In this document: positions 4,184 to 61,093 of the stretch, piece after piece
Layout of the letters: every line of letters starts with the position of its first letter
Position numbering within the stretch: position 1 is the stretch's first letter
Source of the DNA: Microbulbifer elongatus
Lineage (GTDB): Bacteria > Pseudomonadota > Gammaproteobacteria > Pseudomonadales > Cellvibrionaceae
NCBI RefSeq assembly: GCF_021165935.1
Contig: NZ_CP088953.1
Location: 2,899,501-2,963,500 of the forward strand
Length of the DNA: 64,000 nt
Direction of reading: 5' to 3'
Made by a program: the position numbers and the translations under genes
Notes under the pieces: model-generated
What the model was told of the DNA's origin: nothing
The model's input: the letters and a program-made list of their open reading frames with translations, nothing else
Database searches by the model: none

Positions 4184-4195
4184 CGGCAATTGCCG
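4184..4195. repeat. Left 12-bp target-site duplication of IS copy 1, half of a split terminator
   Basis: CGGCAATTGCCG, itself a perfect palindrome, is repeated directly after the element at 5618-5629. On the outer side it continues as CC preceded by an A8 run (4174-4181). The uninterrupted ancestor would read A8-CCCGGCAATTGCCGGG-T8, a bidirectional rho-independent terminator for the convergent puuA and symporter genes. Confidence 0.9.
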
Positions 4196-4204
4196 TAATG
4201 CTGT

Positions 4205-5536
4205 TCACTTAAGCGGAGCGGCACGACGATTCACCGGATAGCGGGTTTTGCTGATCTTTACCGTCCTCGGCCTAGAAGGCCGAGGACGGTCCTCTAAAAA
4301 CAGGTTCCCAATCCCCGCCCTAAGCTCCGATAAGCGCGCTCCAGTCCTTGATAATGGCTGAGCCGCGGCCATGACAATCAGCTGCGCAGCAATATACTGG
4401 CATGCGAACTTAAAGCGTATCCTGGCTGGGTTTCCCCCGTGAGCGACCGCTGCCTGGCTTGCCTCTCGACGTATCACGTTGTACGCCAACAGTAGCCCCC
4501 ACACTTCCTGATAAACCAGTTCCACGGTCTTGCTACGTAGGGTGACGGCGTTGTGCTGCATGGAACTTTTGATGTCACGGAAGCCGATTTCGATTTCCCA
4601 GCGCTCTTGGTAGAGCTTCGCGACGGCTTTAGTGCCGTAAGTATCTGCCGGTAGCGAGGTAAATAGCGTTTTGTTTTTGCCATTATGCTTGTAGCTCACT
4701 GCTCGAACTTCCCAGTACTCGGGAAGGGCCGGATTGCGCTTCCGAGCCTGGGGGGAGACCTTCATTCGCAGTAGTCGATCATTTTTGTTGTAGACCTCCA
4801 CTGTCTCACTGACCAGGCCTTTGCGCTCGGGGATCAGCCAGTGGCGTTGCGTGTTCTGATCCGCCCACCGCAGCAAAAGGTCTGCACTCCAAAAACCCTT
4901 ATCAAACAGGGTTACGGAGGCTTCCGGCACCTGATTCATAAACTCATCGGCCAGGCGTATTTCGCTGCGTCGGTAAGGGCTTAGCTCTGCATTCAGAAGT
5001 ACATGTGAACGTACGTTCATTAGAGCAACCAGGCGCATAAGAGGGTACGGAGTTTGCCGGTTTGTGCTCGTGTTACCGGAGCCAAAATGATCTCGCAGCT
5101 CAGGAGTATCTTGAGTGCGCAACAGCGCGCCATCGACAGCGAGAACTTGCAATCCTCGCCATTCATCTTCGGGGTAACGCTCATGTCCCCAGTGCACCCC
5201 GGTACGTTGAAATAGCCACTGAACGGGGTTAGCACCAAGACGCTGTCGCGCCTTTGATACCCCGCTTGGCGCCAACAGGCTATCGTTCGCGAGCCCCTGA
5301 GCACAGATATTGAGCCTGCGGGCAACTTCTGAGACCGGTTCATTCCTGAACAGGGCCATGCCCAGCACGAGCCAGAGTACCTGATCGGCGGGAAGTCGAC
5401 GGCGGCGAATAGTGGCTTGCGAGGATAACTGCAGAGCGGAATCCACCCATTCAACGGGAATGTTCTGGGTGAAGGTACTCAGGTCACAGAAGGACTGGAG
5501 GGCATCAATATCGAAGAGAGACTGCTGAAGAGACAC
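4205..5536 (-). CDS. IS4-family DDE transposase (copy 1)
   Basis: 443 aa. The first catalytic Asp is in VLAVDGALLRTQDTPE, the second in VTLFDKGFWSADLLL, and the glutamate lies in YQERWEIEIGFRDIK. The last reproduces the IS4 signature Y-(2)-R-(3)-E-(6)-K exactly. The start is GTG at 5536, directly after a T7 run that forms the tail of a hairpin, so no free Shine-Dalgarno is available. The gene fills almost the whole element and its end lies inside the left inverted repeat. It differs from copy 2 at two residues (GVHWGH versus GAHWGH, KTLFTS versus KTVFTS). All catalytic residues are intact, so it is probably active. Confidence 0.95.
   Translation of the reverse strand: MSLQQSLFDIDALQSFCDLSTFTQNIPVEWVDSALQLSSQATIRRRRLPADQVLWLVLGMALFRNEPVSEVARRLNICAQGLANDSLLAPSGVSKARQRLGANPVQWLFQRTGVHWGHERYPEDEWRGLQVLAVDGALLRTQDTPELRDHFGSGNTSTNRQTPYPLMRLVALMNVRSHVLLNAELSPYRRSEIRLADEFMNQVPEASVTLFDKGFWSADLLLRWADQNTQRHWLIPERKGLVSETVEVYNKNDRLLRMKVSPQARKRNPALPEYWEVRAVSYKHNGKNKTLFTSLPADTYGTKAVAKLYQERWEIEIGFRDIKSSMQHNAVTLRSKTVELVYQEVWGLLLAYNVIRREASQAAVAHGGNPARIRFKFACQYIAAQLIVMAAAQPLSRTGARLSELRAGIGNLFLEDRPRPSRPRTVKISKTRYPVNRRAAPLK
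4260..4290. other. 13-bp perfect hairpin inside the transposase 3' end (copy 1)
   Basis: Arms ACCGTCCTCGGCC and GGCCGAGGACGGT enclose a 5-base loop. It lies within the coding region and specifies the Arg/Pro-rich C-terminal segment RPRPSRPR. Copy 2 has the same hairpin at 59584-59614. It is not followed by a T run in the transposase direction. Confidence 0.6.
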
Positions 5537-5573
5537 AAAAAAATCCGGTTTCCTGATCTGGAAACCGGATTTT
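5537..5573 (-). terminator. Terminator-like hairpin guarding the transposase start (copy 1)
   Basis: A 14-bp perfect stem (5540-5553 with 5560-5573, loop TGATCT) reads into a U7 tract that touches the GTG start. It resembles a rho-independent terminator placed just inside the upstream end of the element. It would stop transcription entering from the symporter side and its 3' arm would mask the GGA upstream of the start codon. Protective hairpins of this kind are known for other IS elements. Function here is inferred. Confidence 0.7.
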
Positions 5574-5617
5574 CCGGGGCCCCACCTTAGGCTGCAATGC
5601 TTAAGTGAACAGCATTA

Positions 5618-5629
5618 CGGCAATTGCCG
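5618..5629. repeat. Right 12-bp target-site duplication of IS copy 1, other half of the split terminator
   Basis: CGGCAATTGCCG followed by GG and a T8 run (5632-5639). It is the exact duplicate of 4184-4195. After insertion each convergent transcript keeps a weak 4-bp hairpin without its U run. Confidence 0.9.
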
Positions 5630-59470: not shown

Positions 59471-59508
59471 AACCCGGCATAAACCGAGATTCCCTTTCCA
59501 TAAAAGGT

Positions 59509-59519
59509 CGGCATTGCCG
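59509..59519. repeat. Left 11-bp target-site duplication of IS copy 2, half of a split terminator
   Basis: CGGCATTGCCG, a near-palindrome preceded by AAAAGGT, duplicated at 60942-60952. The ancestor would read AAAAGGT-CGGCATTGCCG-GCCTTTTTT, a terminator after aroG with one G-U pair. Confidence 0.88.
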
Positions 59520-59528
59520 TAATGCTGT

Positions 59529-60860
59529 TCACTTAAGCGGAGCAGCACGACGATTCACCGGATAGCGGGTTTTGCTGATCTTTACCGTCCTCGGCCTAGA
59601 AGGCCGAGGACGGTCCTCTAAAAACAGGTTCCCAATCCCCGCCCTAAGCTCCGATAAGCGCGCTCCAGTCCTTGATAATGGCTGAGCCGCGGCCATGACA
59701 ATCAGCTGCGCAGCAATATACTGGCATGCGAACTTAAAGCGTATCCTGGCTGGGTTTCCCCCGTGAGCGACCGCTGCCTGGCTTGCCTCTCGACGTATCA
59801 CGTTGTACGCCAACAGTAGCCCCCACACTTCCTGATAAACCAGTTCCACGGTCTTGCTACGTAGGGTGACGGCGTTGTGCTGCATGGAACTTTTGATGTC
59901 ACGGAAGCCGATTTCGATTTCCCAGCGCTCTTGGTAGAGCTTCGCGACGGCTTTAGTGCCATAAGTATCTGCCGGTAGCGAGGTAAATACCGTTTTGTTT
60001 TTGCCATTATGCTTGTAGCTCACTGCTCGAACTTCCCAGTACTCGGGAAGGGCCGGATTGCGCTTCCGAGCCTGGGGGGAGACCTTCATTCGCAGTAGTC
60101 GATCATTTTTGTTGTAGACCTCCACTGTCTCACTGACCAGGCCTTTGCGCTCGGGGATCAGCCAGTGGCGTTGCGTGTTCTGATCCGCCCACCGCAGCAA
60201 AAGGTCTGCACTCCAAAAACCCTTATCAAACAGGGTTACGGAGGCTTCCGGCACCTGATTCATAAACTCATCGGCCAGGCGTATTTCGCTGCGTCGGTAA
60301 GGGCTTAGCTCTGCATTCAGAAGTACATGTGAACGTACGTTCATTAGAGCAACCAGGCGCATAAGAGGGTACGGAGTTTGCCGGTTTGTGCTCGTGTTAC
60401 CGGAGCCAAAATGATCTCGCAGCTCAGGAGTATCTTGAGTGCGCAACAGCGCGCCATCGACAGCGAGAACTTGCAATCCTCGCCATTCATCTTCGGGGTA
60501 ACGCTCATGTCCCCAGTGCGCCCCGGTACGTTGAAATAGCCACTGAACGGGGTTAGCACCAAGACGCTGTCGCGCCTTTGATACCCCGCTTGGCGCCAAC
60601 AGGCTATCGTTCGCGAGCCCCTGAGCACAGATATTGAGCCTGCGGGCAACTTCTGAGACCGGTTCATTCCTGAACAGGGCCATGCCCAGCACGAGCCAGA
60701 GTACCTGATCGGCGGGAAGTCGACGGCGGCGAATAGTGGCTTGCGAGGATAACTGCAGAGCGGAATCCACCCATTCAACGGGAATGTTCTGGGTGAAGGT
60801 ACTCAGGTCACAGAAGGACTGGAGGGCATCAATATCGAAGAGAGACTGCTGAAGAGACAC
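59529..60860 (-). CDS. IS4-family DDE transposase (copy 2)
   Basis: 443 aa with the same catalytic Asp residues and Y-(2)-R-(3)-E-(6)-K motif as copy 1. GTG start at 60860 after the same U7-ended hairpin. Ala replaces Val in RTGAHWGH and Val replaces Leu in NKTVFTS compared with copy 1. Intact. Confidence 0.95.
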   Translation of the reverse strand: MSLQQSLFDIDALQSFCDLSTFTQNIPVEWVDSALQLSSQATIRRRRLPADQVLWLVLGMALFRNEPVSEVARRLNICAQGLANDSLLAPSGVSKARQRLGANPVQWLFQRTGAHWGHERYPEDEWRGLQVLAVDGALLRTQDTPELRDHFGSGNTSTNRQTPYPLMRLVALMNVRSHVLLNAELSPYRRSEIRLADEFMNQVPEASVTLFDKGFWSADLLLRWADQNTQRHWLIPERKGLVSETVEVYNKNDRLLRMKVSPQARKRNPALPEYWEVRAVSYKHNGKNKTVFTSLPADTYGTKAVAKLYQERWEIEIGFRDIKSSMQHNAVTLRSKTVELVYQEVWGLLLAYNVIRREASQAAVAHGGNPARIRFKFACQYIAAQLIVMAAAQPLSRTGARLSELRAGIGNLFLEDRPRPSRPRTVKISKTRYPVNRRAAPLK

Positions 60861-60897
60861 AAAAAAATCCGGTTTCCTGATCTGGAAACCGGATTTT
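60861..60897 (-). terminator. Terminator-like hairpin guarding the transposase start (copy 2)
   Basis: Identical 14-bp stem (60864-60877 with 60884-60897) and U7 tract as in copy 1. Confidence 0.7.
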
Positions 60898-60941
60898 CCG
60901 GGGCCCCACCTTAGGCTGCAATGCTTAAGTGAACAGCATTA

Positions 60942-60952
60942 CGGCATTGCCG
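60942..60952. repeat. Right 11-bp target-site duplication of IS copy 2
   Basis: CGGCATTGCCG followed by GCC and T6. Direct copy of 59509-59519. Confidence 0.88.
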
Positions 60953-61093
60953 GCCTTTTTTGTGTATAAACATAAGAGCCCCTGGGCTCTGGCTCCGCTT
61001 GCCCCCAACACAAAATCATTTTTACTGTCGAATTTGAGAAGCTAAATAGATGCCAATCAGCCTGCGTACAATGTCGGAGGTACTCGATTTCTA

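Follow-up and report, generated by a model that had tools for sequence, protein, structure and literature searches.

Target duplications of an IS4-subgroup insertion sequence from Microbulbifer elongatus are centered on terminator-like inverted repeats

The window, a 64,000-nt stretch of the Microbulbifer elongatus genome (contig NZ_CP088953.1, positions 2,899,501 to 2,963,500), contains two copies of the same insertion sequence (IS), each with one 443-aa transposase open reading frame (ORF) on the minus strand. By its sequence the element is assigned to the IS4 family, subgroup IS4, and terminators are almost certainly its target. The reading favored here, with a probability of about 65%, is that of a cut-and-paste IS4-subgroup element whose transposase would select intrinsic terminators. 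New here is the identity of the target: for this clade, and largely for Escherichia coli IS4 too, it is the intrinsic terminator, preferably a bidirectional one, cut symmetrically about its axis. The two copies and their associated features are located in the window as follows:

59520..60941, minus strand: IS copy 2, 1,422 bp, inverted ends TAATGCTGTTCACTTAAG
59509..59519, no strand: left 11-bp target duplication CGGCATTGCCG of copy 2, core of the terminator of the aroG-like gene
60942..60952, no strand: right 11-bp target duplication CGGCATTGCCG of copy 2
59529..60860, minus strand: transposase of copy 2, 443 aa, GTG start; D135, D212 and E316; YREK motif at Y309
60861..60897, minus strand: terminator-like hairpin followed by T7, abutting the transposase start codon and covarying in an alignment of 29 leaders
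60893..60921, minus strand: promoter-like site TTGCAG-17-GAAAAT, −10 overlapping the outer 5′ arm of the hairpin (consensus match only, without a chance level)
4196..5617, minus strand: IS copy 1, 1,422 bp, inverted ends TAATGCTGTTCACTTAAG
4184..4195, no strand: left 12-bp target duplication CGGCAATTGCCG of copy 1
5618..5629, no strand: right 12-bp target duplication CGGCAATTGCCG of copy 1

The first-pass annotation had placed the 11-bp duplication of copy 2 in the core of the aroG terminator, which is borne out by the coordinates and by the intact site elsewhere in the genus. The rebuilt empty site, ATAAAAGGT-CGGCATTGCCG-GCCTTTTTTG, begins 38 bp past the aroG-like ORF. Of 47 matching loci in other genomes of the genus, 11 were opened; at the aroG end each of the 11 has an intact hairpin with A/T tracts, and the closest of these sites reads AAAAAAGGTCGGCATTGCCGGCCTTTTTT. 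Copy 1 is placed between two convergent ORFs.

The single-contig genome holds 16 two-ended copies with 98–100% identity. One of them (L013) was missed by the terminal inverted repeat (TIR) filter and added later, hence the total is 15 or 16 depending on the set. A target duplication of 11 to 14 bp was found at all 16 copies (one with a mismatch), and in each case an inverted repeat scoring at least 6 is centered on it. The terminator criterion (hairpin plus A- or T-tract) allows the hairpin axis to sit 1 bp off the duplication center, for sites and background alike. By this criterion 15 of the 16 sites are terminator-like, as are 238 of 95,895 background positions overall and 53 of 11,057 (0.48%) outside ORFs. 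These ORFs were called by a simple length rule without annotation, and the background hairpins are predictions.

Among the 15 copies put through the ORF caller, 13 sites are outside ORFs, 11 follow the end of an ORF by 60 bp at most and six are between convergent ORFs. Site L010 is inside a 150-codon ORF that is taken as spurious. The one site that fails the criterion, L011, is an imperfect inverted repeat with weak tracts inside a 296-codon ORF. Copies in coding regions had been named as what would speak against target choice; at least one of the 16 is of this kind, yet it still lies in an inverted repeat. The argument for target choice rather than chance, drawn originally from two sites, is now carried by inverted repeats at 16 of 16 and terminator-like sites at 15 of 16 copies and by the same behavior of relatives, which, unlike two sites alone, cannot be put down to luck.

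The relatives came mainly from a search of genome contigs, which supplied 79 loci with mostly 62–84% identity and a few far more distant. To these were added eight loci from an order search and a record of Aeromonas caviae in which one element has 15 copies and a second one 4. E. coli IS4 was sampled from MG1655, from 12 of 60 listed records (of 2,739 matching) chosen so that their positions differed, and from the two phage records that contain it. This resulted in 92 distinct two-ended copies, of which 15 without a matching duplication were left unscored; removal of five same-locus rows (L087, L143, L144, L149, L150) reduced the remaining 77 to 72 sites. Terminator-like sites account for 64 of the 72, namely 14 of 15 in the own genome, 24 of 27 in the relatives, 18 of 19 in Aeromonas and 8 of 11 for E. 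coli IS4. In Pseudomonas, Xanthomonas, Aeromonas and other groups the relatives show the same preference (42 of 46), and E. coli IS4, which is about 37% identical, is largely found at such sites. The MG1655 copy L110 narrowly passes the score, yet is unlike a terminator by eye; L142 fails it though terminator-like by eye.

In a plasmid sample opened afterwards (6 of 40 listed, of 754 records), six copies were opened and three of the five with a duplication are terminator-like. Two of these, the IS4 relatives L241 and L245, occupy the same terminator in opposite orientations, beside a dsbC-like gene of IncC-typed plasmids. For one-ended flanks, AAA was found 8 to 26 bp from the border in 47 of 57, compared to 16% of the background; three of all 57 flanks (L090, L101, L103) come from chance matches to the IS end within transposases of 25–27% identity. 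Within 12 bp of the border AAA was found in 9 of 57, a low number because the duplication intervenes.

The Aeromonas record NZ_AP026896.1 (L138), with its 15 and 4 copies of two IS4-subgroup elements, is labelled as a plasmid and, at 4.94 Mb, is probably a chromosome. In several E. coli strains IS4 was found at the adhE-tdk (L147, L149, L150) and bamD-raiA (L141, L143, L144) gene ends, which may be hotspots or reflect shared descent.

Over the 72 sites the duplications are 10 to 14 bp long (14 bp at four), slightly beyond the published 10–13 bp. Complementarity has its axis at the duplication center, with 0.67–0.78 paired at shift 0 and 0.11–0.28 at shifts of 2.5 bp or more. When the hairpin was searched freely within ±8 bp, 65 of 66 hairpin sites were centered within 1 bp, compared to 107 of 585 background positions that have a hairpin within this range. 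AAA and TTT both occur within 12 bp at 61 sites, with a gap of 3 bp to the border at 33 on each side. The gap is independent of the duplication length (rho −0.07, p 0.41), and the borders mostly lie 3 bp inside the A-tract (left) and the T-tract (right) at any length from 10 to 14 bp. Both tracts were found at 56 of the 64 terminator-like sites, compared to 21 of 69 background hairpins. The near single-base precision of insertion in mid-hairpin suggests that the group aims at a general feature of gene ends and does not insert at random.

In this clade the half-site sequence is AAAA-GCC|CGG; that of E. coli IS4 is AAAA-CGG|CNCC. The CGGCA-TGCCG core proposed earlier is only a part of the signal: it varies, and the most conserved columns are the A-tract and T-tract about 3 bp outside the duplication.

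These data leave a very slight chance for near-random insertion in which selection keeps copies only in harmless 3′ intergenic sites. Terminators are plausibly safe, and the own sites are largely outside ORFs (13 of 15), but just 0.48% of non-ORF positions are terminator-like by the criterion. Selection would hardly bring the duplication center to within 1 bp of the dyad axis at 65 of 66 hairpin sites or keep the tract gap near 3 bp, and target-arm sequence specificity has already been published for the IS4 subgroup.

That 11 of 15 own sites lie no more than 60 bp past an ORF end would also fit targeting coupled to transcription, in which the transposome tracks either RNA polymerase paused at the terminator or the nascent RNA hairpin. 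At five of six own sites between same-strand ORFs the transposase gene runs against host transcription, but these are too few to judge. This coupling is nevertheless improbable: both tracts are favored, though termination in one direction needs just one, one plasmid terminator was used in both orientations, and a site in a coding ORF was used. An orientation bias is not claimed from the five of six copies, as the E. coli and plasmid sites disagree.

Recognition of terminators could be based on sequence or on structure. A half-site matrix gave scores of at least 16 for 33 of 42 clade sites (leave-one-out), and the seven sites with this score in 238 kb of background are all hairpins. A symmetric sequence signal is therefore sufficient to explain terminator targeting, terminators being its main genomic source. 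The alternative, an extruded hairpin or cruciform recognized as a DNA structure instead of the double-stranded half-site sequence, appears unlikely, with evidence on both sides. The arms of the clade sites match beyond the half-site consensus (outer 0.76 vs. 0.56 in shuffled half-sites, inside the duplication 0.76 vs. 0.53; 0 of 1,000 shuffles as high), although natural terminators have matching arms anyway. Off-consensus stems are used, for example L062 and L037. At matrix scores of at least 10, a hairpin is absent (score <4) in 15 of 37 background sites and in 0 of 39 clade insertions; 27 of these 37 lie in ORFs, where insertions could be removed, so that the difference could reflect selection. 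On the other hand, the A-tract positions are the most conserved, though a hairpin has no need of them, little hairpin was found at E. coli L146 and clade site L137, and the duplication is still 11 bp at the long stem L062. The last of these led us to set aside a cruciform model in which the distance to the base of the stem is constant.

For selection of terminators by the transposase, the mechanism proposed here is judged fairly probable. A Tn5-like transposase dimer holding both IS ends would read two symmetric half-sites about one helical turn apart, would accept 10 to 14 bp between them, and would join the IS ends, one per strand, at the half-site borders. The recognized site would be a two-fold symmetric A-tract/GC/GC/T-tract, of which bidirectional intrinsic terminators would be the commonest genomic form.

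The assignment to the IS4 group made in the first-pass annotation agrees with motifs, ends, size and profiles. Between D135, D212 and E316 of the transposase there are 76 and 103 residues, which fits D(60–110)D(100–150)E, and the Y(2)R(3)E(6)K motif is present at position 309 (YQERWEIEIGFRDIK). The ends TAATGCTGTTCACTTAAG fit the IS4-subgroup pattern -AATR--------WTW---- (compared by eye), and 1,422 bp with one transposase ORF is in accordance with the subgroup rule of 1,400–1,650 bp and a single ORF. Profile matches above the cut-off were obtained for PF13006, PF01609 and NF033592, and the transposase structurally matches Tn5 transposase, with a Tn5-like DDE fold. Judging by family membership and fold, transposition would be cut-and-paste with a hairpin intermediate.

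The element carries a terminator-like structure itself. In 34 of 35 leaders, E. coli IS4 among them, the transposase start is immediately preceded by a hairpin with a T-run; the hairpin of L033 is imperfect. In the alignment of 29 leaders, 94.9% of the cells are paired, compared to 82.5% in shuffles, with both-side changes in 57 cells vs. 16.3 and a covariation score of 0.431 vs. 0.173, while pair types (21 vs. 18.8) are not clearly more numerous. In the ten leaders scanned, the best match to a promoter overlaps with the outer arm of the hairpin (without a chance level). Such an own terminator is plausible because the target sites appear to lie at the ends of transcribed genes: abutting the start codon, it would stop read-through transcripts from the split gene end. 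The native transcript would start within the hairpin, from the promoter overlapping its outer arm, and would escape termination.

Several observations weigh against the selection of terminators as set out here. With the first, stricter criterion, in which the axis was fixed exactly, the terminator-like sites numbered 9 of 15 in the own genome, 30 of 42 in the clade with the own sites counted in, 9 of 19 in Aeromonas and 7 of 11 for E. coli IS4, at a background of 0.30%; the criterion was afterwards widened to 1 bp either way. The plasmid copies L243 and L244 (two of the five with a duplication) miss the wider criterion as well. Since L011 interrupts a coding ORF and has weak tracts, L137 and L153 are nearly without a hairpin and at least two of the 11 E. 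coli IS4 sites are inside annotated genes, a functioning terminator is not required for targeting. In arm matching, the tract columns of all sites (56 of 1,000 shuffles) and the IS4 outer arm (92 of 1,000) are not clearly above shuffles. Sequence and structure recognition are not cleanly separable, and structure may have a share. One of the 35 leaders, of the distant relative L134, shows no hairpin before the transposase start, and leader pairs with both-side changes (7 vs. 6.3 in shuffles) are not clearly more frequent.

At E 1e-60, the transposase was found in none of the 47 other genomes of the genus, the own genome being the sole match among 48. At E 1e-40, an order search gave 6 of 390 genomes and a class search 1 of 369 (own genome counted each time). 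Because of the 16 copies with 98–100% identity and their absence from the 47 other genomes, the element probably arrived recently and burst in this genome. A small internal deletion was found in two of the 16 copies, and the transposase frame is shortened in four (L006, L011, L014, L016).

More tentatively, and with the odds somewhat against it, the whole IS4 subgroup could consist of dedicated terminator-targeting transposons which read the two-fold symmetry of a bidirectional terminator, split it with the hairpin at the middle of the duplication, and bring a replacement bidirectional terminator that would also keep out read-through transcription. If true, this swap would make insertion nearly neutral and explain the spread across many gammaproteobacteria. 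Apart from this possibility, the results turn a published, apparently uninterpreted target preference of a major IS family into a testable rule that predicts landing sites genome-wide. The transposon exploits the commonest punctuation mark of its host while carrying its own, and provides a clean case for studying how a DDE transposase tolerates a variable stagger.

AAAN20TTT is the target consensus of IS4, which fits the sites described here, as does an IS4 insertion in the pheST attenuator that Mayaux reportedly described in 1984. The target of IS231A is palindrome-like. This element (IS4 family, IS231 subgroup) has CAT ends, occurs almost only in the Bacillus cereus group and resembles the present one in its duplication of 10–12 bp, according to the relevant sections of De Palmenaer 2008 (PMC2266710); the IS231 subgroup is ruled out by the ends TAATG, which are not 5′-CAT. 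The same source describes striking target-arm specificity for some IS4-subgroup elements; in its main text the word "terminator" has 0 occurrences, and in the sections covered no reading of the target arms was found. With the subgroup as described there (type element E. coli IS4), the element shares transposase motifs, TIR pattern, size and duplication length; dyad centering, tract spacing and terminator identity are added here. In the open-access literature, terminator targeting by an IS4-subgroup element was recognized in none of the matches listed.

IS1272/TnSha1 of staphylococci (IS1182 family) targets hairpins, among them five terminators confirmed by RNA-seq (PMC4923244, PMC5678879). In the passages on its insertion the hairpin is deleted or replaced, with no target duplication and no primary sequence consensus, whereas here, in another family, the target is duplicated and the borders follow the A/T tracts. 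Hairpin replacement of the IS1182/IS1272 type is ruled out by the duplication at all 16 own copies (one with the mismatch). The ISs ISPsy8, ISPpu9/10, ISPa11 and ISRm22 (IS4 family) target repetitive extragenic palindromes (REP) with all copies, some at the symmetry axis, as far as described in the pertinent part of PMC1525189; they use one repeated REP sequence, in contrast to the many unrelated terminators used here.

Two other multi-copy ISs of the same genome, L223–L228 and L260–L263, served as controls, which are weak since both abut attC-like sequence by eye. Around the joined flanks of L260–L263, the highest-scoring palindromes reached 3.6, 4.0, 4.0 and 6.2. This 528-aa DDE_Tnp_1 element has four copies (own genome C1 near 545305, 1359895, 2077884 and 3577884), and its adjoining attC-like sequence, GGGCGTTCAG ... 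GCTCGTTA, suggests an integron-targeting IS in the same genome. L223–L228 is a 323-aa rve-domain element with six copies, several of them flanked by the same attC-like repeat and L260-type element ends. Within the 3′ end of the copy 2 transposase ORF, a strong inverted repeat, CCGTCCTCGGCC-TAGAA-GGCCGAGGACGG, was found at window positions 59588–59617.
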